A stretch of DNA of 64,000 bases from Pseudovirgaria hyperparasitica (lineage: Eukaryota; Ascomycota; Dothideomycetes; Acrospermales; Acrospermaceae). The stretch lies in NCBI RefSeq assembly GCF_010093815.1, contig NW_022985571.1:317164-381163 (forward strand). The letters are read 5' to 3'. Every line of letters starts with the position of its first letter. Positions within the stretch are counted from its first letter, which is position 1. Made by a program: the position numbers and the translations under genes. The notes beneath the pieces are model-generated. The model did not search any database, was not told where the DNA came from, and saw nothing but the letters and a program-made list of their open reading frames with translations. Shown here one piece after another: positions 798-58,448 of this stretch.

Positions 798-830
798 ATT
801 ATTAGTTAAGGGTAGCCCTTAACTAATAAT
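798..830. repeat. Six-frame-stop palindrome, copy 1
   Basis: Perfect palindrome: 15-bp arms (ATTATTAGTTAAGGG and its complement) around a 3-nt centre TAG. It lies about 150 bp inside the LTR of the Gypsy-B-type fragment, the same place as in the two other Gypsy-B 3' ends. Confidence 0.95.
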
Positions 831-852
831 TAGATAGATTTAGATATCTATT

Positions 853-857
853 CTTAT
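853..857. repeat. Target-site duplication of Gypsy-A, left copy (CTTAT)
   Basis: CTTAT directly abuts the first base of the left Gypsy-A LTR and recurs directly after the right LTR at 45662-45666. A 5-bp duplication is normal for Ty3/Gypsy integrases. Confidence 0.88.
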
Positions 858-1386
858 TATAATAAAGCTTCTCTAGTAAGGATATGGCTTATCCCTAAAG
901 TAGCCTATTATATAGAGTATTCTAGCTTTTCTAAAGGTAAAGGTACTTAGAAGGCTCGGAAGAGTATAAGTAGATTTATAGTAAGTATTAATAGAGTATA
1001 AATAGTAACTAGCTAGTAGGCGAGTAAAGTAGTAATTATATTAGTATAAGTTTAAATTAATTACTATAGAACTATCTCTAGAGGTTAGATTTAAAGGGTC
1101 TATATAGTTCTACTAAGGTTCTTTAATTAGAATACTTATTCTAAGCGTCTAGTATATTACTTAGAATATTAGTATTCTATTTCTAATTACTTAGTAGACT
1201 ACTTAGAATATCTATTCTAAGTATCTATAATTAGCTCTCTCTATAGATATCTATCTTAGCCTTAGATTATTATCTAAGGCTATCTATAGTATTATAAGTA
1301 CCCCTTCTATATATTATACTATCTCTTATACTACTTATACTAGAGTCTATATATTCTTCTATAGTTATAGCTAGTAATTTATTATA
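858..1386 (-). repeat. Gypsy-A 3' LTR
   Basis: Nearly identical to 45133-45661 over 529 bp. The ends TATAATAAA and TTTATTATA form a 9-bp inverted repeat, the RIP-converted form of the usual TG...CA LTR ends. It is the 3' LTR because a purine-rich tract on the minus strand abuts its inner edge. Confidence 0.93.
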
Positions 1387-1402
1387 TAATACCCCTTCTA
1401 AG
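1387..1402 (-). other. Gypsy-A polypurine tract
   Basis: On the minus strand this reads AGAAGGGGTATTA directly before the 3' LTR, the position expected for the plus-strand DNA primer. It fixes the element orientation as minus. Confidence 0.65.
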
Positions 1403-4400
1403 ATAATTTATCCTAAAGTACTTCTATTACTACTTATAAGTAGATAGTTATTCTAACTTCCTCTAGTAAGGAGCTCCTTTCTCTTTACTTTTATTATATC
1501 TAGAGTTATAAAATTAGTTAAGTCTTCTAAGTCTAATCCGGTAAAATAGAGAGTTACTTTATCTATCTTAATTAATTATAAGAGTAATAAAATACCTTTC
1601 CCTTACTTATTTTATAAGAAATATAGTTTAACTTATAGAGTAATATTTATAAAGTCCGATAAGTATTTAGAGTATATTTATTAGAGTTATTTAGTAAGTA
1701 AATATAGAATTAAAGCTTTAAGTAAGTTATCTTATAAGTCTTCTTTCTTTTTATTAGGGTAGATTAGTAATATTTCTAGATAAGAAGGTCTATTCTAAGA
1801 AGGCTTGCCTTAAGCTAGAGAAAGAATATACGGCCGTTATCTAGCGAAAAGCTTAGTAGAATACTTAGACTACCTTTATATATCTAGAGCGTTTAGAGAA
1901 ATAGTAGAAGTTATTAGAGTATTATTAAAATAATATACTTTATTAGAATCTATTAGTAATAGATCTTAAGAAGAAGAAAGAGTAACTTAAATAATAATAG
2001 AGAGTTATTACTAAGAAGGTTCCGAATCCTCCCTTAGATTTAAATAATTCTTAGCTTAGTATAGAGAACTAGGCGAATCTAGACTTGATTAATAGACCTT
2101 CTATAATAGTTACTAGTAGTTTATTAAATATTCTCTAGGTTTCTAAGTATTTAATTTATATCTATAGCTCTTCTACTTAATTAGGTACTCTAATATTCTA
2201 TTACTAATTCTAGATTCTAGAATCTTTTTAACTTTAAATTCTTTATTTATAACTTTAATATTAGTTTTAACTTTTATATTACGTAGTACTAGTTCTAGTA
2301 ATAAGATATAAAATACTAGGTATATTCTTATATTCTAAGGTAAAGATAGTTTATAATTAACTTCTAAAATTTTTTATTTTATTCTAAAAGGTCTAATCTT
2401 CTTAAAGTCTAGTTTACTATTTAGTTATTATATCTTAACGTTTTTTTATATAAGGAATACTAGGTCTTCCCCCTTTAGAGATAGTCTCTTTATTCTTTTC
2501 TAATTTATATATTTTACTATTCTTTTATTTATAAAGGAAAGTTTAGTTTATAGTTCTAAGTATAGCTTATATAGTTATTCTACCTTAATCTTTACTTTTA
2601 GTATAGATTATTCTAGTTTATAATTATAGCTAGCTATAGAGTTAAATCTATAGTTTATATAGAATAGTAAAGTTTTAGTTATTAAGGTTATCGCACTATT
2701 ATAGACGAATTAAGCTAGTAGTAGTAGTTCTATCTAATTATTTTATTATTTATTAATATAGTATTATAAGTATTATTCTAGTATTCTATTTAGAATCTCT
2801 ATTTATCTATCTATCTATAGATAATAGACTATTAATAGTTAGTAACTTATTCTAAGCTATTATACTAGGCTTTTCTAAAAGTTTAATATAAAGAGCTTAT
2901 CTCTATTAGATATAATACTATTAGATAATCTATAGTTTACTATAACTACTTATAGAAATATATAGACTATTTCTTCTATATCTATATTCTTTTAATATAA
3001 TATAAAGTAGATATACTTTATAAGTTTATTAACTACTACTAGTATAATATTATACTATACTTATAAAACTAGTTCTCTTAAGAGTAGTAGATCTATTATA
3101 AAATCTATAGAGATTATTTTCTAAGTATATAATAGTAGGGGAATTAGTTAGAATTCTCTATATAGTTTATATCTATTAGATTAGCTTTTACTATATAGAA
3201 TATAGTTCTATATAACTTCTTTAATAACTTATCTTTTCTTATAGATTATATAGTATCTCTTAAATTATTTATAAGTTTTTATTTCTTCTTAGTATCTATA
3301 TATTAGACCTTTATAGAATTCTTTAATAAAGTAATAGATCTTATCTCTAGGAATTATACTTCTTCCCTTAGAGTCTTTAAGTATAAATTCTTTTTATATT
3401 ACTATAATATATTATATTAGTCTAAGGTTTCTATCTTTAGTAACTTCTAATATAGTCTATTCTATAGTAGGTTCTTTTTACTTATATTCCGCTTATTAGC
3501 TAAGGGCGTTAGCTCTTCTACTTTTAGATTTCTTATAGTATATAATCTAAATATTAAATTCTATAAGAAGCTTATATTAACTAATTTACTTCTTTTATAG
3601 TTCCTTTATTATAGTAAAGGTTATAAGATTCTTATAGTTAGTATATATTTTTATTATATAGTCTAATCTATAAAGATAGCTTCTCTATTCCTTAAGGTAT
3701 TTAATAATAGTATAGAGTTCTTTTTTATAGATTAGCTAGTTTATTTCTAATCCTTAGAATTTTTAGAAGTAAAATACTATAGAAGATCTTTTCTCTTATT
3801 TATCTATCTAGGTTAACTACCCTTTAATAGTAAATTCTAATATATCTATCTCTAAGTTTCTCTATTTAATATATCTTTAATACTAGTTTAGTTATAATAG
3901 ATTCTTTTAACTACTAAAATACTTATTTCTATCTTAGTTTCTATTTAAATATTATATTCTTCTTTATAAGCTTATATAGTAGGGCTATTTTTATAGAATA
4001 GTTATATATAAATTTCCTATAAAAGTTCATAAATCTAGTAAATCCTTAGATTTCCTTAACTATCTTAGATTACTTCTAATTTTTAATAACCTTAATTTTC
4101 TTTAGATCTATTTATATTTCTCTAGATATAATCTTAAATTCTAGAAATATAACTTTCTATATATAGAAGATACTCTTCTTTAATTCTACTAGTAGATTTA
4201 CTATTTATAGTTTCTAAAGTATCTTATATATATATTCTCTATACTCTAATAGATTCTTTAAATAAATTAATATATTATCTAGGTAGACTATTATAAAGTA
4301 GTTAAGGTATTTTCTTAATATATTATTAATTAGTATCTAAAATATAGCTAGTATATTAGTTAGTCTAAATAGTATTACTAGATATTTATAGTAGCTATAA

Positions 4401-5016
4401 TAAGTCTAAAAGGCTATTTTCTATTTATCTTCTTCTACTATATATATAAGATTATAGACTTCTTATAAATCTATTATAGTAAAGTACTAAGCTTCTATAA
4501 GTTAGTTCTATAACTTATTAATTTAGGGTAAAGAATATTAGTTTTTAATAGTAATATTATTTAGATATTAATAGTCTATATAGAGTTATTTACTTCTATC
4601 TTTCTTTAGTATAAAGAGTATTAGATATTCTATAGGTAATTTAGATAGTTAGATATATCCTTTTACTTCTATTTTCTTAATATATTATCGCGTTATTTCT
4701 AGTTATTTTTTAGTAAGTTAAGATATACTTTTAAATATAGGCGATATTCCTAGTTAGAGTATTATTATATAATTATATAGACTATACTTTAGTAGTTCTA
4801 TCTTAAGTTCTTCTTTAAAGATAATATAATATTAGTAATATTTCTTTAGTATAAGTATATTATTTATCTTTCAAATCTATTTATCTATAGATATACTTTA
4901 TTATACTATATATTTCTTATATAAGAGTCCGCTCTCTATATTATCTTACTTATTATTAAGCTTCTAAATATAGTAGATAGACTTTCTAGTTATTAGCGCC
5001 TTTATAGATTTATTAA
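1403..5016 (-). pseudogene. Gypsy-A pol 3' half: reverse transcriptase, RNase H, integrase (RIP-degraded)
   Basis: Minus-strand translation shows Ty3/Gypsy pol in order. The RT fingers/palm lie to the right. A VYLDN-ILIY block at 4268-4288 is the catalytic YLDD box, second Asp changed to Asn by a G-to-A transition. A FRLTN-type block at about 4335-4380 corresponds to FGL-NAP. RNase H is recognisable at about 3650-3850 (E-T-D start, then F-KFQGLEIN and KELYTI). Integrase core starts near 3100 with an I-S-I-D-F-I block carrying the first catalytic Asp. Stops are TAG/TAA where Gln or Trp is expected. The 5' continuation lies beyond LINE A at 34275. Certainly non-functional. Confidence 0.88.
5003..5016. 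repeat. Target-site duplication of LINE A, left copy
   Basis: TATAGATTTATTAA here is repeated exactly at 34261-34274, directly after the ATT-repeat tail of LINE A. A 14-bp duplication fits target-primed insertion of a LINE. Confidence 0.88.
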
Positions 5017-5354
5017 TAACTATACCTTATAGACTATTATACTAATAACTCGTATAATATTCTATATAACTATAGAAGATATTAAAAAAAACTTCTCACA
5101 CCCTAACGGACTAAACTAGTTAATTCGGGGCAAAACAGCGATTTACATACATTAAACGATAGAGTATACTAAGTATAATAACCTCCGACACACGTGTGTA
5201 CGTATAGTATATAATACGCGACGATACCGACGTATAGAGACACTATATATAGTTACTTAAAGACTCTTTAATAACACGAGTATAGACTATATCTAATAAA
5301 CGCCGATATGCTAACCCCCTTTTATTAGTTAAGGGCTACCCGTAACTAATAACC
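5017..5354 (+). other. LINE A 5' untranslated region
   Basis: From about 5087 this aligns with LINE B (35050-35301) and, in reverse, with LINE D (58415-58690). Shared blocks include the TTCGGGG word and the palindrome that closes the region. No ORF is visible. Tad/Jockey-type LINEs usually carry an internal promoter here; none can be delimited from sequence alone. Confidence 0.6.
5322..5352. repeat. Six-frame-stop palindrome, copy 2, 2 bp before LINE A ORF1
   Basis: 31-bp palindrome with one mismatched arm base (CCGTAAC for CCTTAAC). It ends two bases before the ATG of ORF1, so a stable hairpin would sit at the start codon of the mRNA. Confidence 0.93.
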
Positions 5355-6670: not shown

Positions 6671-6675
6671 TAGTA
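6671..6675. repeat. Target-site duplication of outer Gypsy-B, left copy (TAGTA)
   Basis: TAGTA precedes the LTR at 6676 and follows the LTR ending at 30563 (30564-30568). LINE A homology resumes exactly there when compared with LINE B. Confidence 0.88.
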
Positions 6676-7044: not shown

Positions 7045-7192
7045 TATATACCTCCCCGGCCTATAGAACTACTACCCTTAGTAGTATAGTAACCGTGTAA
7101 GAAACCGTGTAAAGAACGCCTAAAAGAAAGACCTTAATATGAATAAAATGCGCCCCTAGTAAACCTCTCGGCGCGGGTAAACCTTAGCCCGG

Positions 7193-7225
7193 ATTATTAG
7201 TTAAGGGCAGCCCTTAACTAATAAT
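7193..7225. repeat. Six-frame-stop palindrome, copy 3, after the Gypsy-B extra ORF
   Basis: Perfect 33-bp palindrome with centre CAG. On the minus strand it lies just downstream of the end of the extra ORF, about 150 bp before the 3' LTR. Confidence 0.95.
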
Positions 7226-7250
7226 TAGGTAGGCTTTCAGGCGCCTAATC

Positions 7251-10313: not shown

Positions 10314-10848
10314 TAATTTTAGAGGTCGTACCTAGACTACGAACTTATAGGGGGAGATTAGAACTCCGAAACTAGCTTAGGGGAAGTATATAGCGTGTCT
10401 AATAAGGTAGTCTAGACTTACTAGATTAAAGCCACGAGTCCGGAAAACAGGGAGTCTAGAGTCGCTAGGGGCTAGCCTCTTAAAAGTAGCCGTAAAAAGC
10501 ATGCGTATACTAATATAGGTGATAGCGCGACTCGAAAATGTCTTAGGGGAATAGAATATAAAATAGGGCTAGATGAAGTAGCAAAGAAGAGTTCAAAAAC
10601 GATAAATATAACCTGTTTAGTACTACTATAGCTATTATTTATAAACACGGCTACACGAGTATACTACTTTAGGAACGCCTTACACGAAGATAATAATATA
10701 AGTAGGATACCGTAAACCTTATATCGATAAAGACGATAGTAATAGTTTACCTTATAAAGGGATTAATTAATATAGAGAAGGGATAATAGGTGTTATAGGT
10801 AGACGTATTGGGCCAACCTTTAGTTAAGGTAATCCCTTAACTAATAAC
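10314..10848 (+). other. Gypsy-B leader between 5' LTR and gag
   Basis: No recognised gene. The primer-binding site should lie in its first 20 bases, but I could not match it to a particular tRNA. The region ends in a palindrome copy (10819-10847), after which the gag frame is open. The counterpart in the outer copy is 29660-30194. Confidence 0.55.
10819..10847. repeat. Six-frame-stop palindrome, copy 4, ahead of gag
   Basis: Imperfect form with arms TTTAGTTAAGG and CCTTAACTAATAA and an altered centre (TAATC). The gag frame (codon phase of the ATG at 10975) can be read back to this palindrome with only TAA breaks. Confidence 0.88.
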
Positions 10849-10974
10849 CTTACCCCTAGCGTCTCCACTAGTACACCTACTACTAGTAATAGTGCGATAG
10901 GAGCTTAAAATAACGACCTAGTAACTCGTAGAGAGATACTTAACTTCTTCGTAGTATTTGCGCGATAAGGAAGG

Positions 10975-13900
10975 ATGGTACCTCTATCTACCCTAGCCCC
11001 CGAGCGCTTTAAAGGAATAAATATTCTAGCCTTCCTTCGGAAGTACGAGGACATATATATAAACTATAAAGTTCCGCCTAATAAGAAGATAACCTCCCTA
11101 CCGTTATACTACGAGGACCATCTCTATCCTACTATTAAAGGAATAAGTGGGTTTTAGAAATAGTAGTGGGCCACGCTACGTAAAGAATTATTAAAGGAAT
11201 TCTCTCTATTTAACTCCGCCCTCAAGGAAGGCACTATCTACTTTGTCCGAAAATACGTGGAAATGGTTAAAGTAGACCCATTCTACTCTCTCTCTATATA
11301 CTACTCCCGGTATCGTGTTATTACGGAGAAACTTACGGCTAAAGGAAGCCTAAGCTCGTATTCGCGAATAGAGCTCTTCCTAGAAGGGCTGCCTAATAGT
11401 CTTAAGGCTCGGGCTATAGAGAAATATTAACTTACGATGGAAGCATATAGTTATAACTAGGTAATTATCTATGGCTTCGTATTATAAAAGGCTAGAGCAC
11501 TTAAGGAACTAGCTCGTATTAATAAGTACTTAGCCGCATAAGAGCTGGCCATAGCCATATACTATAAATTAAAGATAGGGAGTAAGAAGACTAGCTTAGA
11601 AGAGTAGTCATATAAAGAAAGAAGAACTAATGAATTTAGCCACCCCTCTCTAGTCGAAGTACACGTTACGCTAGAATCGGATAAGTTTAACGAGATGGTA
11701 GAGAGATTTAGTAAACTAGACCTCACGTTAATTAAGATAAAGTCCTACTTTACCTCTAATCCCTTATTTCTATCCCTTAAGAAGTACGAACCTAAGCTAC
11801 TTTTGGCTATTATTAACTAGTAGACGCGAAGGCTAAATCTTTTAACACACCCCTAAGTACGAGGCATACCTATAGAACTAACGTAAGTTTATCCATAGAA
11901 TTATATATAGAATAGAGAATACGTCTCTACCCGAGACTTCTAAGGAGGCGTTATAGCCTAGGATAGGCCTTAAAGACCGATCGTGTATATTACGTACGGA
12001 GGAGATTACCTAATATATAGATACCCGGAGATAGTAGAATATATTAGAGACGAATTACTAAATATTAACGGGGTATAAGTATTCTAAGGGCGTTTCGGGG
12101 CGAACGGAGAAGAAATCCCATTACTACCCTCCTTAGTAGGGCTATAAGCTACTCTATAAGCTATCCGGAACTACGTAGTAACGGTTTAAAACGGCCTAAG
12201 CTAGTACGGAAGGGGAGTAAAGGTTTCCACGTCTATAGTAAATATTAACGCTTTATAGGGAGTACTAGTATATAGTATTAGTATAAAACCTACGAAGGGT
12301 CCCTACTAGGCCTCGGCGGATAGCAATTCGGAAGAAGAAGTTACGTCGCCCGAGAGTAAGAAAGATAGATATATAGAATTCTACGAACGCTTCGACGTAG
12401 CTAGTAATAGATATATCCGCGAGGAGATAGCCCTAGAAGAGCCCGCTATACTCGTAATATCTAGAAGGGGGATCACGAAGAGTACACCTAATTATACTAA
12501 GGAAAGAAAGATTACCTATCTCCGCGGAATGCGTAAAGGGTAGTATATAAGGATTATCGAGGAATAGGAGGACGGTAAAAAGAGTAGTAACTAGGGAACG
12601 TCTAAATAAGAGCTAACGGCGCCTAAGAATAAGATAGATAAAGGGGATAGCCTAAATCCTAGTTAAAAGGCACGTATCCGAGACGTTAAGCTTAATAACT
12701 ATCTACGCGAGGGATAGTGGCTAAGTATAGAAGCTAGCGAAGCATAGCTAGTGCGCGTTCTAGGGATAACTATAAATATTACCATTAGTAAACTATTAAG
12801 CCTTAATAGCGACTTACGTCGTGCGGTATTCGAGAAGGGCGCCCCCGACTTTATAGCTAGAGAGGTCCATAAGACTTAAGAGGAGAAAGCCGAGAAGAAA
12901 GGAAGAAACGACTATACTATAGCTCCCGAGATAAATAAACTTAATATATTAGTACCCCTCTATACTATAGGGACGGCCATCACGTAACGAGATATTAATT
13001 AGCTTAAGGAAGGGATAGTAAGGCTAGTGGCCGAGTGTCTAAGGTACCCCGTAGAAGTTAGTCCTAAAAGAGTAACTAGTATAGTACTATTCGATAGTAG
13101 CGCGTAGATAAATAGTATTCGACTAGATGCTACGAGGCGTCTCGGGCTAGTAATATCTTCGCTTCTACTATATATAAAGAACTCGAGTTTAGTTAGCGCT
13201 ACTTAGTATAGTACTCTATTCGTGGGAATAGTATAGTAATACCCTATCCGTATAGATCGGATTATTACGGCTACTTCGATATTTATATATAGCGAACTTA
13301 ATTATAACCTTATTCTAGGGGAGCTATATACTAGGTAGGCCTTACTTACGGTATAGAGGTTAGCCTCTAGATAAGTACTCTTAATAGTCTACTCCGTATA
13401 TAGATAAGAACGTATAACCTTTAAAACTAGTCCGGATAAGTATATTCTAGTCTTAGAGAAGGAGGGTAACTCCGTGGCTAGAGACTAACTATATAGTAGA
13501 GTATATCGCTAGAAGCCGGAGTTAAGCCGGATTATTAGTTAAGGGCTACCCTTAACTAATAATCCGCACTAAATAGGGTCTAGTAAACCCACTAACGAAG
13601 GGGATAGGATATATTTTTATATAGATATAGAAATAAGTTATATAGAGTTGCTTTCCGAGAAAATCCGGCCTAAAAATATTACTCGGTTATTAAGAAAAGA
13701 TAACTTAGCCGCCCTAGTTACGGCGGCGAGGTACGCTACCTTCGTATATAAATAAGGCACGATAATAGAACGGCTTATAGTAGGCTCCACCGGCCTCTAA
13801 AGACGGTATTCTTCCGGGGTATTAAAGGGATTTAGTATAGCTACCATATATAAAAGAAAGGGAGTTAAAGTATACCCCGTGGATGACTCCGAAGCCTACC

Positions 13901-16900
13901 GAAAGGTCTCTAGGAATCTATTAGGGTATCTAGACTAGCGTGAACGAGTAATCGCACGGTAGGTACTTCTTCCGGCCGTCCACCTAGGCCTTAACGCGCT
14001 TAGTAGACTAATAGAGCCTTAAAGGGTAACTATCCCGCTAGGAACACGTCTAACGCCTCTACGTATAAGTTAGCTAAAGATTAGAATAGAGCTACGTCCC
14101 GCGGAACTTAAGTTACTATATATAATCTTATTATATCGCGAGGAAGCACTAGCATAGGAATTCTTATACCTTAGTAAATTTCATAAAGAGGTGGCACCTC
14201 CGTAGGAGATCCGAACGGTAGAATATAAGGTATAGTAGGCCAAGAACTTTAATATTCCTAGAGCCCTTTATAGGAAGGTACTCATAATCCTAAAAGAGCG
14301 TCTTAATAGCGGAAGGCTCGAGCCCTATAGTAGTCCTTATTAAAATGCCTATTTTCTCGTAGAAAAGAAGAAGGAAGCTAATAAGGAACAAGATTATAGG
14401 TTAATTAATTCGGCGATAGAAATCAACCGAGTCACCATTCGTAATGCGGCCACGCCGCCCTTATATAAAGAATTCTCGGAGTACTTCACGGGGATAGCCG
14501 TCTTAACGTTTACCGACTTCTTCTTAGAATATAATTAGATTCTATTAGTAGAGTATTACCGAGACTTAACGGGGTTTATAACGCCTCTAGGGTTACTACA
14601 CGGAATAATATTACCTTAAGGGGCCACTAATTTAGTAGCTTAGTTCGTTAGAATTATATTAACTATTATATAAGAATACATCCCGGAGAGGGCTCTGCCA
14701 TTCCTAGATAACTTAGGTATTAAAGAACCTACGACGAAATATAACTCTAAGGAAGCCCTACCTAGAATTTATAGGTATATCCTAGAACATTTAATTAACG
14801 TAGATAAGGTTCTCGCGGATATAGAGCGCGCTAGATACGCCCTAAGTAGTAAGAAGACTTAGTAGTATATTAAAGCCGCTAACGTTATAGGATACGTCTA
14901 CGGCATTAAAGGGAGGCGACCGAGTAATAAAAAGGTTACTACTATTAGGGACTGGAAACCCTGCAAAAACACGATAAATATGCGAGCCTTCCTTAGCGTT
15001 TATATATATTTCCAGATATAGATCCCCGGGTACACTATTATCACATCACCACTATTTATACTATTAAAGAATAAATCGGCCTAGTAGTAGATAGCTAAGG
15101 AGTAGACCTCGATAGACGCGCTAAAGATAGCTCTAACTACTACTCCCGTACTAATAACATTATAGTACGGGATAGGTACGGGAGATATAATTCTAGTAGT
15201 AGACTCTAGTAACGTTAGGTAGGGGGCTACGTTAATATAGGAGAACGAGAATTATAAACGTTAGCTATCGCGGTATAATAGAGGAATGTAGTTAAAAGCT
15301 AAGAGAAACTACGATACCGTGAAACTAGAGTACCGAGCCCTCCTCTACGCGTTATAGAAGTTCCGGTAATACCTCTATAGCACGTACTTTATTATAGAAA
15401 TAGACGCGAATACTCTAGTCGCTTAAATTAACTATACCGTAACTAACTTACTAGGGGCGCTTATTACTAGGTGGCTCGCGTGGATTTAGCTATAGAACTT
15501 TATAGTTAGATATATACCTAGGAAGCGTAACGTAGTCGCCGACGGTATCTTACGGATATATAAAGGAGAAGAACTACTAGACGTCCCTACCTTTAACCTA
15601 GACGAGTTCGTGGACATGGCTCTATATATAGATATACTAGAGACGTCGTTAATTAAGCCTATTAGCGGGAGAGATTACACGATAGGGATACTCGACTATA
15701 CTACCATTAAGTCTCCCTCAATAGATAAATATAGCGATAAATAGTAGAGGATTATAAAGTACCTTACTATACTTAAGAGGCTAACCGACCTAACCGACCG
15801 AGCGTATAAGGCCTTTATAACCGACTACCTAAAGTTCCTTATACGTGACTAAATACTCTAGTAGAGAGGAGATAGGCATCGCTAATACACACAAGTAATT
15901 AAGGATCCGAATACTAGGGCGTGTATAATTACTACCACTCACGACGAGATAGATTATAGAGGTAGTAAAGGGACCCTTAGAAGAATTAAGGATAAGTATT
16001 AGTAGATAGGTATATATAGAGACGTGCGATAGCACGTGAAAACCTATAATAAATATTAACGACGAAGTAAGCTCCTCGGAGGTCTTAATAAAGGGCTCTA
16101 CCATATTATAACGCCTGTTCTTTAGTAAAGAATGCACTTAGACGTAACGATACTACTACCTTCTATAGGGTATAGTAAAGTGGTATCTATATAAGAATAG
16201 CTAAGCGGATAGACTAAGGCGGAGGTATATACGGTAGCTACGTCTATAGTCGTCGTAAAGTTTCTCTTTAAGAACGTGATCTATAGATACGGAATTATTC
16301 CTAAAATTACCTATAACGGTGGTAGAGAAAATATAGGTGCTATAGAGGAGCTCCTCCGACTCTATAGAATTTATTAGAAGGTTACGTCTACGTATAATCC
16401 CTAAGTAAATAGAATTATTAAGAGAAGTTTTATACTACTCGCTAATGCTCTCGCGAAGATAACTAATAGCGGATTTAAGAACTGGCCCGACCACCTCTAT
16501 ACGGTCGTCTAGGTAGATAGAATAATAATACGTACTAGTATAGGGTATAGTACCGTATACCTCGTGCTCGGCTATAAACTAATCATGCCTATCGAAGTCG
16601 AATTCGAGTCGCTCCGAATACTCCCTTAGGATAAGGTGCGATCGACGTCCGACTTACTTACTCTTTAAGCTAGATAACTTAAGAGAAGATCCGAGGATCT
16701 TAAGGAGACCTATATCTACGCGATACGAACGCGTGAGGAATCGAGAGAGGCATAGAATAACGACTATTACCTTCGTTAAGAGTCGTTACTAGTTAATATA
16801 ATTATCCTCCTATACGACTTATAGTAATAGAAGGATATAGGGCGGAAGCTAAGGTAGTATTAGAGGGGACCATATAGAATCTAGTCCGTGTTTAATTATA

Positions 16901-20805: not shown

Positions 20806-20838
20806 ATTATTAGTTAAGGGCTACCCTTCACTAATAAT
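20806..20838. repeat. Six-frame-stop palindrome, copy 6, after the extra ORF
   Basis: 33 bp with one arm mismatch (CCTTCAC for CCTTAAC). In the phase of the extra ORF it reads AAT TAT TAG, so it would supply a stop codon if the TAA at 20778 is a RIP product. Confidence 0.93.
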
Positions 20839-25991: not shown

Positions 25992-26024
25992 ATTATTAGT
26001 TAAGGGTAGCCCTTAACTAATAAT
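25992..26024. repeat. Six-frame-stop palindrome, copy 7, between protease and RT (outer copy)
   Basis: Perfect 33-bp palindrome with centre TAG, at the exact counterpart of 13531-13563. The position was therefore fixed before these copies diverged. Confidence 0.95.
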
Positions 26025-29660: not shown

Positions 29661-29689
29661 TTATTAGTTAAGGGATTACCTTAACTAAA
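29661..29689. repeat. Six-frame-stop palindrome, copy 8, ahead of outer gag
   Basis: Imperfect form, the inverted counterpart of 10819-10847 with the same altered centre (GATTA). Confidence 0.88.
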
Positions 29690-30194
29690 GGTTGGCCTAA
29701 TGCGTCTACCTATAATACCTATCATCCCTTCTCTATATTAATTAATCCCTTTATAAGGTAAACTATTACTATCGTCTTCATCGATATAAAGTTCACGGTA
29801 TCCTACTTATGTTATTATCTTCGTGTAAGGCGTTCCTAAAGTAGTTAACTCGTGTAGCCGTGTTTATGAATAACAGCTATAGTAGTACTAAATAGGTTAT
29901 ATTTATCGTTTTTGAACTCTTCTTTACTACTTTATCTAGCCCTGTTTTATATCCTATTCCCCTAAGACATTTTCGAGTCGCGCTATTACCTATGTTAGTA
30001 TACGCATGCTTTTTACGGCTACTTTTAAGAGGCTAGCCCCTAGCGACTCCGGACTCCCTATTTTCCGGACTCGTGGCTTCGATCTAGTAAGTCTAGACTA
30101 CCTTATTAGACACGCCATATACTTCCCCTAAGCTAGTTTCGGAGTCCTAATCTCCCCCTATAAGTTCGTAGTCCGGGTACGATCTCTAAAATTA

Positions 30195-33993: not shown

Positions 33994-34025
33994 ATTATTA
34001 GTTAAGGGTAGCCCTTAACTAATAA
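33994..34025. repeat. Six-frame-stop palindrome, copy 9, end of LINE A ORF2
   Basis: 32 bp, centre TAG, with perfect arms. It provides an in-phase TAG for ORF2. Confidence 0.95.
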
Positions 34026-35023: not shown

Positions 35024-35268
35024 ATAGCTAGGAAAAAACTTTTTACATCCCTAAGAGGCTAACTTGGTCCATTCGGGGTAATATAGCGAGATACACACCT
35101 CAATCGATAGAGTACACCGAGTACACCAACTACTACTACACGCATATACGTGTAGCGTCGAAACCAAGACGTTACCGCCGTATAAAGATATATATACACC
35201 CTCTTAAAATCCTTACGGAGATAGAGGTACGGACCACGCTACTAGAACGCCGATACGCCGACCCCCTT

Positions 35269-35299
35269 TTATTAGTTAAGGGCAGCCCTTAACTAATAA
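35269..35299. repeat. Six-frame-stop palindrome, copy 10, 2 bp before LINE B ORF1
   Basis: Perfect 31-bp palindrome with centre CAG; the ORF1 ATG is at 35302. Confidence 0.95.
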
Positions 35300-35301
35300 A
35301 T

Positions 35302-36640
35302 ATGGCGGCCTTAGGCACCGATATACCCCGGTATATACCGGATATACCCCTACTAGTACGATAGAAAAGGCCATATAGCGATACTACTAAGGGTAGCTAT
35401 ATACCTATCTAAAATGTAGAACACATCTAAAGGCGCACGCCGCTATAGATAGATAGAATAAAGGGGACCCTAAGAGGGGAAACCCTCCTAAATCATATTA
35501 ACTACTAGGTAGCACGTATAGAGAAGGAAGCCGGAGAGGGCTAGAAGACCCTCCTATATATATTCTAGGACCTTATCTAGAATCTAAAGGGAATTACGGA
35601 GGAGGAGAAGAAGATATAACTAGGAGGACTAGAGGGTAGGCTCGACTAAATGGAGGCTAGTCTATATAGAATCTAGGAGGAACTCACTTAAGGTAAGCGC
35701 CCTAGTATATAGGTATAAATAGTAGTAATACCGGAGGCTATACCACGGGCCCCCCGGACCGGCGACGTGGTATATAGTATACGCGTCGCAATCTAGGATA
35801 AGGACACCCTAGTATAGGTCTAGCGAGCATCCCTAAAGGATATAGTAAGTAAGATTAACGAATAAAAGGGAATATAGTTAAATATCGTCGCTGCTAAACT
35901 CACGCTAGGAGGAGTAGTACTTACTACGATAACGAATATCGCGTAGTAGACCATCTCGCGCGATCCGAACGCGATTAGTAGTATCTTCCTAGGCGCCTCT
36001 ATTAGGGCGGCCACATACCCGATATAGGTATACTCTATGCCCGTAAGCGGATAGGTTATTAGAGAAGAAGATATTACGCGGATGGAATAGTTAAACGAGC
36101 GAAAATACCTAGGGATTAAGATTATAAGAGTATGGTAGAAGAATATATAAGGGATTAAAACCAGATTAAAGTTATACTCTACTATAATAGTAGAGCTTAA
36201 GGACCCCGCCCTCGCGTATCGAATTACGTAAGAGGGATTCCTAGCGGAAGGGGAGCTTCTTATAGCGGAACCATGGGATAGAGCATAGGCGATAACATAG
36301 TACTTTAACTATTAGGGATACGGGTATATAGTATAGCGGTGCTCCTAAAAGACTAGGTATAGGTAGTATCGATAAGAATATAGTACCTAGGAGTGCCCCT
36401 ACGGGACATAAGGAGAGGGCTAGAGGGATAGGGATACGGCGAAGTACTCTAACTACGACGGTAAGTACCCGTCGTAGTCGGCTACGTGCGCGAAACGCAA
36501 ATAGGTTACTAAATATATCTACTTAATCTAGATAAAGGGAGTAAGGTAGCTATAAATAATGCGACCTACCACCGTTCCTCTCTTTACTATAATACTACTA
36601 CTATAGACTATCTCCTCACGAGGAAGCGGTTAGGAATAGT
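35302..36640 (+). pseudogene. LINE B ORF1 (nucleic-acid-binding, three zinc knuckles), RIP-degraded
   Basis: Starts with an ATG followed by GCG GCC in the same setting as LINE A. The N-terminal charged region is followed from 36301 by a cluster of three CCHC-type knuckles in degraded form: YFNYQGYGYIVQRC, then a YRQY-QEYSTQEC block, then a YSNYDGKYPSQSATC block (Tyr standing for Cys or His by C-to-T or G-to-A change). Three knuckles near the ORF1 C-terminus are usual for Tad/Jockey-like LINEs. Expected role: an RNA chaperone coating LINE RNA. The exact end is unclear because of RIP stops. Confidence 0.82.
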
Positions 36641-36659
36641 AAACCGTCCCGAGAAAGCT

Positions 36660-39600
36660 AATAATAGGATAGCCCTAAGGAATTACTAAGGCCGCCGCCG
36701 TACGAGGATAGTCGCGTCTTAGAGGAATAAATATATAGGCCTATACATTCCCTAGCACCTAATAAGAGACCAAGATATACTCCTAATTATATAGATAAAC
36801 ATATAGTATAAACGTAAGAACTAGGCGATACTCCTCGAGGAGACCGGAGCTATAATACTCGCTATATAGGAGCTATATAAACACTACCAGACGAATAAAC
36901 CAATAACACACCTAGGATATTATATAATACACCCCCTAGGACCGGAGAGGAGAGTCCTCTTCCATGTCTATAAGTCTATTCTACTCTTATTATAGTCGTA
37001 TACTAAACGGGATAACCTCCGGATAACACTACACCTCTAGATAAATATCGGACCCCTCCACATATATAATATATATAACTAGAACCGATCGCTTTAGGCG
37101 GATGATATACTTAAGGGTACTACCGAGCTAGGATAACATATCCTCCTAGGAGATTTTAACCTCTATTATAGCTAGTAGGGTAGACTAATCGTTACCCGCG
37201 AAGAGCTTCGAGCTAGAGAACTACGCACCTAATACCACGGCTTCCTATACCTTCTTATACTAATAGAATAGATTACCTAGCGAAAATATAAATAAGATAA
37301 GGGCGGATCTATACTCGACCTCACCCTAGCCACTAGACATATTTATAATAGGACTTAATACTACCGCCTAAGCCTTATATAGATAGACTCCGACCACGAA
37401 TATATGGAGACCTTAATAGACGTATCCACCCCTTAAGACTAATGAGGGCGATAGCTATAGAAGGATACTAACTAGGAAAAGTATCTAAAGGACCTGGAAT
37501 CGACGATCCTAGACCCGTCTATAGTCGACGTATCTAATGGCCCGGCCATCGACTAGGCCGTGAATATACTTCTATAGGCGTATTAGGGAGTAAGAGATAA
37601 ACACGTGCCGTACCGAATATATAGACCCCTAGACCCGAAAAGCATACCTTAAGTACAAGAGTATAGGCGAGAAGTCCGGAGATTATATAGACGCGTATAC
37701 TATAACCGTATATCTAAAGCGTAGGATAAATAGAGAGAGGTAAGAAGATAATGAGATAAAGTCCTCCGTAACGAGCGACGTAAATAGTAGTATATAGTCA
37801 CGGACAGATACACACGTAATACTACTAGACTATGGCATATAGTAAAATGGGCCAAAAGCACCGCCTCCCTAATACCTATACTACTTATACCTCCCCTTAT
37901 ATATTAAGAAAAGACGTACTCTACGAGCCTCGAGAAAATAGAGATTCTATAAGAGGTTATATTCCCTCTCCTAGAACCTATAGACCTATTAGATATTAAC
38001 GGTACGGAATACCCGGAAGCTGTAAGTATCCCTAGGGAAATCACGGACGACGATATACTCGGCACTATTAAGATACTCCCGAATAATAAAGCGCCTAGAC
38101 TAGACGGAATTCTAAATCGATGCCTTAAGAGGACCATATAGGCGACCTTACCGATTATAGGCCATATATTCCGAGCGTGCGCCCGTATAGAATACCACCT
38201 ATAGAGCTTCCGAACTGTATACACGGTTATACTTCTAAAACTAGGGAAGAGCCTAAACACGCCGAAGGGATAGAGGCCGATCGCCCTCCTCTCCTACCTT
38301 AGTAAGGTACTAGAAGCTACGATTACTAAGAAGATAAGTATAGTAGTATAGGTATACGGCCTTCTCCTAGTAAACCAGAAGGCGAAGGTAGGAAGCTCCC
38401 TAATTATAGCTATTTAATACATCCTCGAGGTTATCTAGACTATATAGAAATAAGGACGAGTCGTTATACTACTCTCCCTAGACATAGTAGGGGCGTTTAA
38501 TAAGGTAAACTATATAAGACTTATCCATAACCTCCGGATAAGGCGAATACCTAAGTAGATTATACGATTTATATAGTCCTTTCTCGCGTAAAGGACTACT
38601 TAAATATATATCCCCGGATACCGAAGCGAATATAAGGAGACGGTATACGGCATCCTATAAGGGAGCACCATCTCCCTAATCCTCTTCCTCTTCTTTATAG
38701 TAGACCTCCTTTAGAGAATAGAACACACAGAGGTAGTCGGATACACGGACAATATATACCTCCTCGCGGTCAATAGTAGTACTAGTAGAACATATATACG
38801 ACTCGAACGAGACCACGAGAAATGCGTCTAGTAGATAAAGCGCCACGGAGTAAAATTCGCACCTAAAAAATACTAGCTTATATACTTTATTAACCGCTAT
38901 AGAGGATAGGCTACTAGGGAGGGGGCACGTCGCCCCTAAATCGACGCCTTTATAGAACCACTAGTATAGAGTATACGCGCACTCGGCGTCATGATCGATA
39001 ATAAGCTAAAATAGGGACCATAGGTGGCACACGCCGTCTCTAGAGCCCTCTAGGTAGAAACCGCTATACGCCGGATTACGGTATCTACGTAGGGAATAGC
39101 CCGGGATAAGGCGAGACAGCTATATATCTCTCTAGCATGCCTAGCCTTTATATACGGACACGAGTACTAGTATACGGCCCTTATATAAGCTCGGCGGGTA
39201 AAGCTTAAGTCTATATAAAACCGTATACTCCGCCTTATCTCCGGCGTATATAAAGCTACTAATACGACGCTCCTCTAACGCGAGATAAACGTAATAAGTA
39301 TATAGAACTTCTACTAGATATAGAGACTTATATACTTTACTAAATAATAAGCATAAGAACGTGGAGGAGATAGGGTATATACCTTCGCCGTACTACGCAC
39401 ACGTATCTACGCGCATTACTAGGCCCTCCCTACTATAGAATAAACTCGAGTATAATATAAATGCTATATAGAGGCGGACTCGAGCTAGACCGTGTAGAAG
39501 GTTTAAAATAACCCGGATGCTATCCCGAGCTAATAGAACCCTAAGAAGCTTAGCCGCGTCATGCGGTTATAGATCTAGGATAAATAGAGGGAGATACTTA

Positions 39601-40055
39601 AAGCCTAGTAGGCCTCCTAATAGGATAGGTATCTAGAATGGATCTAAGGGCCTTAGAAGGAACCGAGTAAATAGATATATAAAGGGCTAACAAAGGCCTA
39701 AGTATCTATACTCCTCCAAGCCCGAATAGGCGCTATAGGTCTTCTATATTACCTCTACTAGAGAGGCGTCCTAGATATATCTCCCTAGTGTAAGGACTAC
39801 GGCCGGAGAGGTATAATACGCTACTACCTCGCGACGTGCTCTAGTCTATATACCCTAAGACAAGCCCTCGTCCGTATAACGAGGACCTCCGACATCACGC
39901 GATAGCTTAATAAATACTCTAAGGACGTCGCCCGATAGATGCTCGCATACCTTCCTCTCCCCTAGTTCTAGTAGACCCGCGTATATATACTAGAAGAAGC
40001 CCGATATATACTAGAAGAACCCCGGTATACGTCGGAAGAACCCTGGGAGAACCGC
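36660..40055 (+). pseudogene. LINE B ORF2 (endonuclease-reverse transcriptase), RIP-degraded
   Basis: N-terminal endonuclease: an IIQINIQ-type start near 36780, a LAIQEL block near 36860, and GDFNL at 37149-37163. RT follows, with the catalytic box at 38742-38753 reading YTDN (for YADD). A region near 39650-39810 resembles the C-terminal RNase H/Cys-rich end (LQARIGAIGLLYYLY, then Cys/Tyr spacing). The phase is kept throughout with only TAG/TAA breaks and the same 1,593-bp GDFN-to-YxDD spacing as the other copies. The frame runs into the palindrome at 40057, which reads GAT TAT TAG. Confidence 0.87.
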
Positions 40056-40056
40056 G

Positions 40057-40089
40057 ATTATTAGTTAAGGGCAGCCCTTAACTAATAAT
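40057..40089. repeat. Six-frame-stop palindrome, copy 11, end of LINE B ORF2
   Basis: Perfect 33-bp palindrome, centre CAG. Confidence 0.95.
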
Positions 40090-40327
40090 CTCCGCACCTA
40101 TACGTGCTACCTAAGGGCAAACCATTATAACATAGGCTATAGGCCTATAGGTAGCCCCTAGGGCTATATATATATAAAGAACGAGAGGATAGACAGAGCG
40201 TAGTCATAGATATAAGGGAGTTTTTCCTATTCGTAGGTTTCTTCTTATATAGTAGCTTAGACTAGAGGAGGCATGCGCCTATAGAGTGGTACTCTACCTA
40301 GTTTACTAATATTATTATTATTATTAT
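40090..40327 (+). other. LINE B 3' UTR and ATT-repeat tail
   Basis: Same landmarks as LINE A (TTCTTATATAGTAGCTTAG, ACTAGAGGAGGCATG); ends in about six ATT units. No ORF. Confidence 0.8.
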
Positions 40328-43607: not shown

Positions 43608-43622
43608 CCCCTTAACTAATAA
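43608..43622. repeat. Half palindrome, copy 12, right arm only
   Basis: CCCTTAACTAATAA follows AGAACC directly; the left arm and centre present in LINE A and B are missing. A precise loss of one arm suggests slippage or excision at the hairpin. Confidence 0.85.
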
Positions 43623-43862
43623 CCTCTATACCTACACGTGCTATCTAAGGGTAAAATAACGGTAATATAGGCTATAGGCTAATAGGTGTACCCTATGGCT
43701 ATATACTTAAGAAGAAATAAAGGTTTAATAAGATGTAATTATTAACATAAGGAAGTTTTCCCCTCTTGGGTTTCTTCTTATATAGTAGTCTAGACTAGAG
43801 GAGGCATAGGCCTATAGAGTACTACTCTACCTAGTTATACAATATTATTATTATTATTATTA
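43623..43862 (+). other. LINE C 3' UTR and ATT-repeat tail
   Basis: Conserved 3' landmarks as in LINE A and B, ending in about seven ATT units. No ORF. Confidence 0.8.
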
Positions 43863-45661: not shown

Positions 45662-45666
45662 CTTAT
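45662..45666. repeat. Target-site duplication of Gypsy-A, right copy (CTTAT)
   Basis: Second copy of the 5 bp at 853-857. Confidence 0.88.
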
Positions 45667-47200: not shown

Positions 47201-47229
47201 TATAGGCGACTAGAATAATAGCTCTAACC

Positions 47230-51012: not shown

Positions 51013-51029
51013 ATTATTCTCTCTCTTTA
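51013..51029 (-). other. D' polypurine tract
   Basis: On the minus strand this reads TAAAGAGAGAGAATAAT up to the LTR, identifying that LTR as the 3' one. Confidence 0.7.
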
Positions 51030-53329: not shown

Positions 53330-53337
53330 TTATTAAT

Positions 53338-53341
<4 letters not shown>
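53330..53341. repeat. Target-site duplication of LINE D, left copy
   Basis: TTATTAATTATA, repeated at 58696-58707. It overlaps the start of the TAA-repeat tail, so the boundary has a few bases of uncertainty. Confidence 0.75.

Positions 53342-53393
<52 letters not shown>
53338..53393 (-). repeat. LINE D tail: about 18 TAA/ATT repeats
   Basis: Three times longer than the tails of LINE A, B and C (about six to seven units). Confidence 0.93.
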
Positions 53394-53395
<2 letters not shown>

Positions 53396-53615
53396 TTATA
53401 TAACTAGATAGAGTAGTATTCTATAGACCTATATCTTCTCTAGTCTAAGCTACTATGTAAGAAGAAACCCCATAGGGAAAAACTTTCTTATATCTATAAC
53501 TATATCTTATTAAACCTCTATTTTATCTTAAGTATATAGCTATAGAGTACGCCTATTAGTCTATAGTCTATATTACTATTATTTTACCCTTAGATAGTAC
53601 GTATAGATATAGAGG

Positions 53616-53646
53616 TTATTAGTTAAGGGTTACTCTTAACTAATAA
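53616..53646. repeat. Six-frame-stop palindrome, copy 13, end of LINE D ORF2
   Basis: 31 bp with altered centre and one arm mismatch (GGGTTACTCTTAAC). Confidence 0.9.
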
Positions 53647-53649
53647 TTA

Positions 53650-56600
53650 GGGTTCTCCTAGGGTTCTTCCGGTATATACTAGGGTCTATCTAGTATATAT
53701 CTAGTCTCGTCTAGTATATATATCTAGATCTATTAGTATTAAGGGAGAGAGAGATATATAAGTATCTACTAGGTAATCTTCTTAGGGTACTTATTAAGCT
53801 AGCGTATAATATTAGAAGTCCTTATTATATAGATAAGTAATTATCTCTATATATAGAGGTCTAGATATATTACGAGATAGTACTATATTATATCTCTCTA
53901 GCTATATACTTTATACTATAGAGATATATCTAGGATACCCCTCTAATATAGATAGTATAGAAGTTCTATAGCTTCTATTTAGGCTTAGAGGAGGATAGAT
54001 ACTTAGGCTTTTATAAGCCCTTTATATATCTATTTACTTAGTTCCTTCTGTAGTTCTTAAATCTATTCTAGATATCTATTCTATTAGAATACCTAATAGA
54101 TCTAGAGGACTTCCTTCTATTTATTCTAGGTCTATAACTATATAGCCCGTACGAGCTTCTAAGGGTTCTACTAGTCTAGAGAGACGTCTAGATTATTCTC
54201 TATCTTCTATATAATCTAATTTAAGTCTATCTCTATTAGATATCTATATTATATCTAGATTTAGTCTATATATTATAGTACTTAATAGTAGATACTAACT
54301 TATATACGTAGTATAGTAAAAGTATATTCTATATATTCCTTCTATTTCTATACTTATTATTTAGTAAAGTATATTACCCTCTATATCTAGTAAAAGTCTT
54401 ATATACTTATTATATTTATCTCGCGTTATAGTAGTACTATATTAGTAGCTTTATATATACTAGATATAAGGCGGAGTATATAGTTCTATATAGATTTAAG
54501 TTTTATTTATCTAGTCTATATAAGGGCTATATACTAGTACTTATATCTATATATAAAGGCGGGTCGTACTATAGATATATATAGCTAGCGCGCCTTATTC
54601 TAGGTGGTTCCCTATATAGAGGCCGTAATCTAGTATATAGTAGCTTCTATCTTAAGGGCCCTAGCTATAGTATATATAATCTATAGACTCTATTTAAGTT
54701 TATTATTAATTATAATACTAAGTATATATATACTCTATATTAGTAGTTTAGTAAAAGCTTCTATTCTAGAACATCGCTCTCCTTTCTTAGTAGTCTATCT
54801 TCTATAGTAGTTAATAAAGTAAATAAGTTAGTATTTCTTAGGGGTAAACTTTACTCTATAGCGCTTTATCTACTAGATATATCTCTTATAGTCTTATTTA
54901 AGGTATTTATATATTAAACTAGTATTATTATTAATAGCTAGAAGGTATATATTATTAGCGTATTCTACTATCTCTATATATTATATTCTCTATAGAAGGT
55001 CTATAGTAAAGAAGAGGAAGAGAATTAGAGAGATAGTACTTCCTTATAGAATACTATATATTATCTTCTTATATTTACTTTAATATCTAGAGATATATAT
55101 CTAGGTAATTCTTTTAGTAAGAAAGGACTATATAAACTTTATAATCTATTCGGGTATACGTCTCTTCTATAGGTTATAGATAAGTCTTATATAGTTTATC
55201 TTATTAAATATACTAGCTATATTAAGGGAGAGTAATATTACTATACGTCTCTACTTCTATATAGTCTAAATAACTTTAAGAATATATTAGATAGTAGTAA
55301 TTAGAGAGCTTCTAGTCTTCGCCTTCTAGTTTACTAGAAGAAGATTATATTCTTATACTATAGTACTTATCTTCTTTATAATTATAGCCTTAAGTATCTT
55401 ACTAAGATAAAAGAGAAGGGTAATTAGTCTCTATCCTTTTAGAGAGTTAGAGTTCTTCTCTAGCTTTAGAAGTATAATAGTATAGATAGTCTAGAAGCTT
55501 TAGGGGTAGTATCTATTCTTAGTATATATCTAGAAGATAAGACTAATAAGTAGTAGAGTTATCTATATAGTATATTTAAGGTATCTATTTAGTATTCTAT
55601 CTAGTCTAGATACTTTATTATTTAGAAGTACTTTAATAGTATTAAGTATATTCTCTTCTATAATCTCTATAGAGATATTAACTATATCTAGATATATAGT
55701 ATCGTTAATATCTAATAGGTCTACTAGCTCTAGAGAGGGAAATATAACCTTTTAGAGGATCTCTATCTTCTTAGAACTTATAGTATATATTCTTCCCTAG
55801 TATATTAGAGAAGATATTAGGAGTAGTAGCGTTAGTATATCCACGCTCTTAGCCTACTTTACTATATACTATAGCTCTATAGCCTATTATATATACTTAT
55901 TAGTAATTATATACTAGTATTTATATTATTTATTATAGAGAGCTCTATTATAAGATTAGATTATCTCTTTCTATTTCTTCTATACCTTAGCTATCTAGAT
56001 ATAGTATACACGTATATATAGTCTCTAGGCTTTCTATCTACTTTTATATATTTAAGGTATACCTCTTATATCTAGAGACTTATATATTTAGTATAGTATA
56101 TATTTATCTCTTAAGTCTTAGAAGGCTTAAAGAAGAACTTATATAGCTCTATCTATAGCCGGGCTATTAGATATATTAACTATAGAGAGATATAGAATTA
56201 CTAATTCTAGGTCCTCCCTATACTTCTTCTAGTTAGTATCTTTCTATAGCTATCTCCCCCTTTATTTATTAGATATAGATATATCTATTATAGTCTCTAT
56301 ATACTTATGGTTAGAGTCTATCTATATCTTACTAGGGCGGTAGTATTCTACTCTATAGCTTATATATTCTATAGCGAGAGTAAGGTCGAGTATAGATCCC
56401 TTCTTATTCTATTTATACTTTCTCTATATAATCTATCTAACTAGTATAAGAAGATATAGAAGGTCTTAGTATCTTATATATAGTTCACTCGCCCTAAGCT
56501 CTTCTCTAATAACTATTAGGCCTCTCTACTATCTATAGTAGAGGTTAAAGTCGCCTAGAAGGATATATTATTCTAGTACTATAATACTCTCTAGTATAGT

Positions 56601-57040
56601 ATCTAGTATAAGTAATTCTCTCTAGTTATAGATATTATAGATATAGAGAGGCCCTATATTTATCTAGAGATATAGTATTATCTAGAGGTTATCTCGGTCT
56701 ATATAGAACTATTCTAAGAGCGGGATTAATTTACATATATAGAATAGAACTCTTCTATCTAGGTCTAGGAGGTAGATAGTATAGTATTCTAGGTGTGTCG
56801 TTAGTTTATTAGTTTAGTAGTATTTATATAGCTTCTAGATAGCTATTATCGCGGTATCTATCTCTTCTAGAAGTATAGTCTAGTTTTCTTATTTATATTA
56901 TACGTTTACCTATATAATAATAAGTATATCTTAGCTTCTTATTAGATACTAGGGAATACTTAAGTCTATATACTAGTAGTATTAAGGCGTAACTATCTCT
57001 ATATAGTAGCTACCTTAAGGATACCCTAGGGTCGCCTAAT
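53650..57040 (-). pseudogene. LINE D ORF2 (endonuclease-RT), heavily RIP-degraded
   Basis: Minus-strand GDFNL at 56555-56541 (preceded by ILL). RT box at 54962-54951 reads YANN, both catalytic Asp changed to Asn by G-to-A. The distance between them is again 1,593 bp. Many more TAG/TAA stops than in LINE A-C. The ORF2 start is estimated by alignment with LINE B. Confidence 0.8.
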
Positions 57041-57044
57041 CTTC

Positions 57045-58414
57045 CTCTATATAGTATACTATTATATATTAGTTCTACTCTCTTATAGATTAGTAGATAT
57101 AGTTATAGATAAGGTTAGAGTAGATAGTAGAGGCCTTATAGCCTAGTATATCTACCTTACTTCTCTCGCCTTTATAGCGTTAATATACTTAGTAACTTAT
57201 TTATATTTTATATATATTACTAACTAGAATAGGTATTTTCTATTATAGTTAGAGTACTTAGTAGTTTCTCTATCTTATATACTATTACTCTAGGTCCTAT
57301 AGGGGTATTTCTAGGTACTATAGCTTTAATAATACTAGCTATATATAGCCTTTTAAGAGTACCTCTACCTAGTATATCTATACCCTTAATAGTTAAAGTA
57401 TTAGATTATTATCTATACTTAGTTCTATAGTTCTACTATAAGTAGTTCCCCTTTAGCTAAGAAGCCTTTCTATATAATCTTATAGATAAGAGCGGGGTCC
57501 CTAAGCTCTACTATTATAGTAGAGTATTTTTTTAATTTTATCTTAATTCTCTATATATTTTTCTACTATATCTTTATAATCTTAATTCTAGGGTATTTTT
57601 AGTTATTAGATCTCTCTATTTACTTAATATTATTATCTCTAATAACTTAGCCCTAGATAGAGATAGTATATATCTATATTAGGTATATATTTATATAGAT
57701 AGACGCGCTAGAGAAGATATTATTTATTATGTTTAGGTTATAGAAGATAGTCTACTAGACTATATTAGTAGTAGTTATTAGTACTATACCTTCTAGAGTA
57801 AGTTCAGCTATAACTATATTTAACTATATTTCTTTCTATTTATTAATTTTATTAATAATATTCTTTAGGGACGTCTACTAGACTTATATAAGTACTTTCT
57901 TATTCTAGATAGTAACTTATATACTATACGCTCCTCCCTTAGATATCCTTAGTATCTAGACTATCTTAATTATACTATCTATTAGTATAGTAATCTGTAT
58001 CTATATACTAGAGCGTTTCTTCTAGATAAGGCCCTCCTAGATTCTTAGTAGACTAGCTTTAATTTAGTCTAGTCTAGACTCTAGACTTACTTCTAGCGTC
58101 TATTTTACTTCTATAGTAAGCTCCTTAATATTCTAGACTAGACTCTAGAAGATATTAAGAAGAGTAGTCTCTTCTTTCTTAACCTCTCTCTCTATATATA
58201 CTATCTAGTATTTAATCTTATCTATAAGGGTATCTCTAATTGGAGTCCTCTCTATCTTAGTTATCTATAGTATTTTATACTCTTAGTTATTTTCTATTTT
58301 TTAGATATTAGATTAGTTATTCTAGAATATACTACTATATAGCCGTTTCTACTATACTAATAGTAGAGGTATATCTAGTAGAAGCTAGGGTATATTAGTA
58401 CCTAAGGCCGCTAT
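57045..58414 (-). pseudogene. LINE D ORF1, heavily RIP-degraded
   Basis: Begins three bases after the palindrome at ATA GCG GCC, the RIP form of the ATG GCG GCC start seen in LINE A and B. The zinc-knuckle cluster is expected near 57400 but is too mutated to read with confidence. Extent is set by comparison with LINE B. Confidence 0.7.
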
Positions 58415-58417
58415 AGT

Positions 58418-58448
58418 TTATTAGTTAAGGGCTACCCTTAACTAATAA
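58418..58448. repeat. Six-frame-stop palindrome, copy 14, before LINE D ORF1
   Basis: Perfect 31-bp palindrome, intact although the surrounding sequence is among the most RIP-mutated in the window. Confidence 0.95.

Follow-up and report, generated by a model that had tools for sequence, protein, structure and literature searches.

One short palindrome is common to two unrelated families of retroelements in the fungus Pseudovirgaria hyperparasitica, a long interspersed nuclear element (LINE) of the APE type and an 11.4-kb Gypsy family (Gypsy-B), and has a third home in host DNA. It was noticed in a stretch of 64,000 nucleotides (assembly GCF_010093815.1, contig NW_022985571.1, positions 317,164 to 381,163 of the forward strand; the whole stretch is called the window below), where a reading made from the sequence alone had placed it at the edges of open reading frames (ORFs). 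The observation holds up and is out of the ordinary, and the reading as a shared module is the best supported of those considered. In this reading the palindrome is a short hairpin patch which was copied into unrelated DNA, is old in the LINE and also occurs in Gypsy-B and in host DNA; we give it a probability of about 0.47, a little under even. It is supported by the occurrence in two classes of element, the host copy, the differing flanks, two types of loop, the flipping of the loop and a rearranged piece of element DNA bordered by the palindrome.

The core common to the full sites in the window is 31 bp long, TTATTAGTTAAGGG-NNN-CCCTTAACTAATAA. The palindrome is present at each of the 14 window coordinates of the sequence-only reading. 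Its count of 13 full copies and one half copy is right as to the half copy at 43608, but the sites at 10819 and 29661 carry a degenerate form with 4 changes. Site 798 does hold the palindrome, in a copy of Gypsy-B heavily altered by repeat-induced point mutation (RIP). Within the window no further palindrome matches were found beyond the sites given here, in agreement with the earlier statement that Gypsy-A, C and D lack it; single-arm matches with up to 3 mismatches numbered 42, versus 13.4 (sd 3.7) in shuffled sequences. Sites are designated P1 and P2 in the LINE and P1, P2 and P3 in Gypsy-B:

799..829, minus strand: palindrome core at Gypsy-B site P3, heavily RIP-mutated; the flanks match other Gypsy-B P3 copies by eye
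5322..5352, plus strand: palindrome core at LINE site P1, directly before ATGGCGG; spacer in CTA orientation, one arm change
7194..7224, minus strand: palindrome core at site P3 of Gypsy-B copy 2
10817..10847, plus strand: degenerate palindrome at site P1 of Gypsy-B copy 1, in frame, probable gag N-terminus
13532..13562, plus strand: palindrome core at site P2 of Gypsy-B copy 1, codon phase kept between protease and reverse transcriptase (RT)
20807..20837, plus strand: palindrome core at site P3 of Gypsy-B copy 1, end of the extra ORF
25993..26023, minus strand: palindrome core at site P2 of Gypsy-B copy 2
29661..29691, minus strand: degenerate palindrome at site P1 of Gypsy-B copy 2
33995..34025, plus strand: palindrome core at LINE site P2, end of ORF2
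35269..35299, plus strand: palindrome core at LINE site P1; ORF1 ATG at 35302
40058..40088, plus strand: palindrome core at LINE site P2; ORF2 stop TAG at 40062-40064
43609..43623, plus strand: half palindrome (right arm only) at LINE site P2, from a subfamily without the left arm
53616..53646, minus strand: palindrome core at LINE site P2
58418..58448, minus strand: palindrome core at LINE site P1
9943..21359, plus strand: Gypsy-B copy 1, about 11.4 kb, nested in copy 2, as judged from the repeat pattern of the window
30568-21359 and 9943-6671, minus strand: Gypsy-B copy 2, split by copy 1, judged likewise
35269..40327, plus strand: LINE copy with ORF1 (frame of 35302), ORF2 with RT domain, 3' untranslated region (UTR) and (ATT)n tail

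A genome-wide search had been proposed, and in the assembly (35.03 Mb) the 33-mer matched 516 places with up to 3 mismatches, while a reversed-pattern control matched none. With letters that tolerate RIP, 438 exact core matches were obtained, and a 25-bp native core gave 570 places at up to 3 mismatches. The copies fetched and read are only a part of these, most of the 516-570 places being unread. Fifty copies from 20 genomic stretches and the window fell into the five site classes; clustering returned four groups, merging LINE P2 with Gypsy P3, and these two were separated by their flanks. Another 14 copies with different edge bases, taken from the 100 of 130 pattern matches listed, also lay in LINE P1, LINE P2 or Gypsy P2. 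The exact native half-site had 27 matches at 24 places. Of the 23 places fetched, 7 were Gypsy P1, 1 Gypsy P3, 2 LINE P1 and 8 LINE P2, and the remainder comprised 3 LINE half copies, the rearranged piece (L037) and one piece of host DNA (L046). Thus all fetched copies except these last two are inside the APE-type LINE or the 11.4-kb Gypsy element. The exact palindrome, in RIP or native form, had no match in collections of viral and prokaryote contigs, and a scan of the window against Rfam at gathering thresholds returned none. Short palindromes with other spacings (L063-L067) have only the 7-bp inner arms in common with the present one and were set aside.

The native arms are TTATTAGTCAAGGG and CCCTTGACTAATAA, as read from un-mutated copies at three places (L035, L036 and L037; C7:197993, C26:232842 and C47:11013), where one arm has CAA, the opposite arm TTG and the loop CAG or CTG. 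Eight further listed places retain CAA in one arm. Copies outside RIP-affected sequence had been called for, together with the caveat that RIP might have made TAA from CAA, and the three places bear that caveat out. The native DNA is still a perfect palindrome, with one open frame per strand (ATT ATT AGT CAA GGG CNG CCC TTG ACT AAT AAT). In the window CA and TG occur at 0.20 and 0.14 of expectation, and in the CAA contexts of positions 5000-44000 the C is kept in 2-5%, versus 52-66% in genic DNA. The closure of all six frames is therefore a product of RIP (CAA to TAA, TTG to TTA), a by-product of the fungal mutation defence, and the statement that any phase meets a stop on either strand holds for RIP-mutated copies only. 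Since the native arms carry CAA and TTG, an all-frame stop cannot be their original function. Two ideas were rejected on these grounds: a six-frame stop by design, which the un-mutated copies lack, and the absence of CA and TG in the arms as a sign of native TAA arms, because CAA keeps its C so rarely here. Both in-frame Gypsy sites, P1 and P2, use the natively open frame; for P2 this is the probable state, as no un-mutated P2 copy was seen.

The LINE has an RVT_1 domain in ORF2 and a weak endonuclease match below the cut-off. Both placements described for it before were correct. Site P1 is located 2 nt upstream of the ORF1 start (ATGGCGG), and at P2 the reading frame of ORF2 continues into the palindrome arm and meets its TAT-TAG. 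In two un-mutated LINE 3' ends ORF2 terminates after PDY and SDY, respectively, within this TAT-TAG, showing that the ORF2 stop is native. The loop flips between CAG and CTG among LINE subfamilies with the arms unchanged, as expected of the centre of a hairpin. One subfamily (L023, L024, L026 and L029) has the loop TAA in place of TAG/CAG and likewise unchanged arms. In the subfamily having the right arm only (window 43609-43623; L042, L049, L053) the break falls at a CCC repeat, which suggests a deletion. Two older, un-mutated copies, L061 and L062, were assigned by eye to LINE 3' ends. Immediately upstream of the palindrome the ORF2 C-terminus (window 39980-40057; L035, L036) consists of imperfect short CCGG-rich repeats and extends farther than most of the homologous proteins aligned with it. 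The LINE 5' UTR (window 35040-35160) shows CA and TG at 1.05 and 0.35 of expectation (10 and 2 counts), above the 0.31 and 0.18 of the remainder of the same copy.

Gypsy-B contains an RNase H domain in frame 0 and a weak match to the integrase zinc-binding domain, below the cut-off. Its RT aligns with homologues in frame 0, the frame of P1 and P2. Frame 0 is the poorest in stops from about 10750 to 16600, so a single gag-pol frame probably ran through both sites, as far as RIP-damaged copies allow this to be read. Several homologous ORFs start downstream of P2, and separate ORFs are therefore possible in Gypsy-B as well. Site P1 had been placed before gag; a site is indeed present there, but it falls within what is probably the gag frame, roughly twelve codons past a candidate ATG, and has the degenerate form. 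The two other placements proved accurate: P2 lies in codon phase from protease to RT, and the extra ORF ends at TAT-TAG of the arm of P3.

The copy in host DNA (L046, C19:255587-255633) forms an inverted repeat of 47 bp, matching itself at 89%, and a zf-DNL gene encoded on the other strand ends about 440 bp from it. Its loop, ATT, has the same letters as that of Gypsy P1. A 601-bp query around it found no other match, in a search which skips very common words and missed other palindrome copies too; the flanks are apparently single-copy, a conclusion that the search supports rather than proves. At L037 (C47:10420-11620) an un-mutated RT frame of another Gypsy element (RVT_1, E 1.7e-22) is broken exactly at the palindrome edge. 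The other side holds the palindrome and 21 bases of LINE 5' UTR, followed by other DNA with an open frame, and the palindrome is here part of a small moved piece. At L062 (C36:16200-17300) an un-mutated LINE 3' end starts within the left arm and abuts a frame truncated within its HET domain (Pfam HET, positions 1-88 of the 146 in the profile, E 6.2e-11). This single case looks as if reverse transcription had halted in the hairpin.

Beyond the palindrome the flanks mostly differ between sites; Gypsy P2 and P3 have edge bases in common (6 and 8 of 12). The same palindrome thus stands in unrelated elements without extended shared flanks, as the sequence-only reading had claimed, and two loop types occur, one of them, AAT/ATT, in Gypsy P1 and the host copy. 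At the coding sites the reading frame continues open through the insert, for P2 presumably. Independent movement of the patch is only partly supported, and several results weigh against it. Six distinct homes and one rearranged piece were found in the copies examined, fewer than would be expected of a freely mobile element. The LINE positions, 2 nt before an ATG and at a stop, look chosen rather than tolerated. Empty sites and short target duplications had been named as things to look for. A search for joined flanks found no empty site among 40 scored matches for LINE P1 and none among 40 for Gypsy P2, these being the best 40 of 154 LINE and the best 40 of 64 Gypsy candidates; all carried the extra 31 bp, or 32 and 33 bp in two LINE cases. 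Twenty of the LINE P1 copies were read and all hold the exact core; they belong to one close subfamily, which makes the test a narrow one. Homologous proteins from other sources are 24-40% identical, too distant to be aligned at the site for this comparison. No direct repeat of at least 5 bp borders the palindrome in 7 of 8 rows, including the host copy. The remaining row, Gypsy P1, has the 6-bp repeat AACCTT, a length reached in 13 of 500 shuffles, and is 1 of the 8 rows tested. No parent or longer element with palindrome ends was seen in a search by exact half-sites, which would miss diverged ends. Finally, the arms vary less than the flanks among LINE subfamilies, which suggests function. 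Transversions in the arms amount to 6/588 (1.0%) in 7 LINE P1 and 0/763 in 8 LINE P2 representatives, compared with 68/735 and 48/735 in the 35 columns left and right of P1 and 24/791 and 33/973 at P2, transitions being excluded because of RIP; the contrast is biased, as the representatives had been found by their palindromes. When 20 LINE P1 copies retrieved through their flanks were compared together with the window copy, no transversion occurred anywhere, which makes this comparison uninformative.

The main rival, which we consider rather unlikely, is that selection maintains the palindrome as a functional RNA (or DNA) hairpin required by both retroelements, for instance at the starts and ends of ORFs, where it might stop or re-start translation or act in 3' processing, packaging or recognition by RT. 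The predicted hairpin is very stable (RNA -22 kcal/mol, z -8.9; DNA -14.3 kcal/mol), it is placed exactly beside the ORF1 ATG and as the ORF2 stop, and the retention of the insert in every scored match as well as the low share of transversions in LINE arms, 1.0% at P1 and 0% at P2 where the flanks have 3-16%, would follow from selection. However, the arm counts suffer from the sampling by near-exact palindromes just described, and correction of one arm by the other may equally keep the arms identical. In L061 and L062 the right arm has TAATGA in place of TAATAA, and the left arm, visible in L061 only, shows the matching C but also extra bases; this amounts to no more than a single weak paired change, indistinguishable from such correction. 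Gypsy P1 and P2 moreover are located within the probable gag-pol frame, away from ORF edges, P1 is degenerate, and the host site serves no retroelement. Less probable still is one transfer between LINE and Gypsy-B by recombination, followed by gene conversion within Gypsy-B, with no independent module at all. The edge bases of Gypsy P2 and P3 do resemble those of LINE P2 (GA before, TCC after in L036), and Gypsy P2 has GCAC soon past TCC, as has the LINE after two extra bases. Farther out the flanks do not align (LINE P2 and Gypsy P2 agree in 7/12 positions on the left and 3-5/12 on the right), and Gypsy P1 and the host copy have the other loop, AAT/ATT.

Perfect inverted arms and the AACCTT repeat would also suit a DNA transposon or a miniature inverted-repeat transposable element whose ends have fused, with a parent present or past in the genome. 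We regard this as very unlikely, given that target duplications are lacking at the sites other than Gypsy P1 and that the fetched exact half-sites (23 of 24) all lie in palindromes or in LINE half copies; 18 more half-sites, in which the second arm is short of its initial base, are likely one-base variants (unfetched, half-sites with A as the next base excluded). Hardly credible is a motif at the protein level, I-S-Q-G-x-P-L-T-N-N, for instance a protease cleavage site, to which the DNA palindrome would be secondary. Gypsy P1 and P2 are read in one open frame, and L037 and the host copy are open in that phase, but LINE P1 precedes the ORF1 start, the TAG frame is the one used at LINE P2 and Gypsy P3, and the identity of the DNA is palindromic with silent positions included. 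Among 32 LINE and Gypsy homologues SQGxPLTN with up to 2 mismatches was absent apart from one poor two-mismatch hit (P0034).

If the palindrome is a copied patch, its native core, TTATTAGTCAAGGG-3 nt-CCCTTGACTAATAA, which the host site extends to a palindrome of up to 47 bp, would be old in the APE-type LINE, standing before the ORF1 start and supplying the ORF2 stop codon. Besides these positions it has three sites in the 11.4-kb Gypsy family and another in apparently single-copy host DNA. Most of the roughly 500 copies would have arisen through retroelements amplifying with the palindrome on board. The hairpin patch itself may have spread when reverse transcriptase switched templates or when DNA breaks were filled in with it, and copies may have survived only where no ORF was broken, that is in a UTR, at an ORF end or in a single open frame inside gag-pol. 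The later action of RIP changed CAA/TTG to TAA/TTA and created the apparent all-frame stop.

Palindromic mini-elements are known from bacteria and mitochondria. Rickettsia palindromic elements are bacterial, about 150 bp long and were first reported at 44 sites; like the present palindrome they are short palindromic repeats copied into unrelated sites, some in frame within protein-coding genes (PMC10969869). In contrast to them, the present palindrome measures 31-47 bp, is nuclear and was found in six homes, all but one of them in retroelements. Hairpin-forming short repeats of mitochondria appear to invade intergenic DNA repeatedly (PMC2800124), and palindromic microsatellites are described in Fusarium mitochondrial DNA (PMC7218506), whereas our palindrome is nuclear, occurring in retroelements and at a single intergenic site. 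Repetitive extragenic palindromes are palindromic repeats of 20-40 bp (PMC3733652); they are prokaryotic and extragenic, and no transposase or end signature was found for the present palindrome. A nuclear eukaryotic counterpart of these mini-elements, a gene-less hairpin of about 31-47 bp without target duplication or parent transposon that passes as a patch from one unrelated retroelement or piece of host DNA to another and has them as its carriers, is a doubtful though conceivable identification. Among the papers listed, our literature search returned nothing fitting on a palindrome common to LINE and Gypsy elements, and a search for the printed palindrome sequence gave only matches judged by title to be chance.

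The case also warns that, in genomes subject to RIP, mutation can produce both seeming stop codons and the symmetry among them. If confirmed, it would mean that sequence modules pass between LINEs and long terminal repeat elements, which have no recent common ancestor, and into host DNA. It would then offer a tractable case for studying how hairpins are copied, by template switching or break repair, and whether two classes of retroelement depend on one factor.

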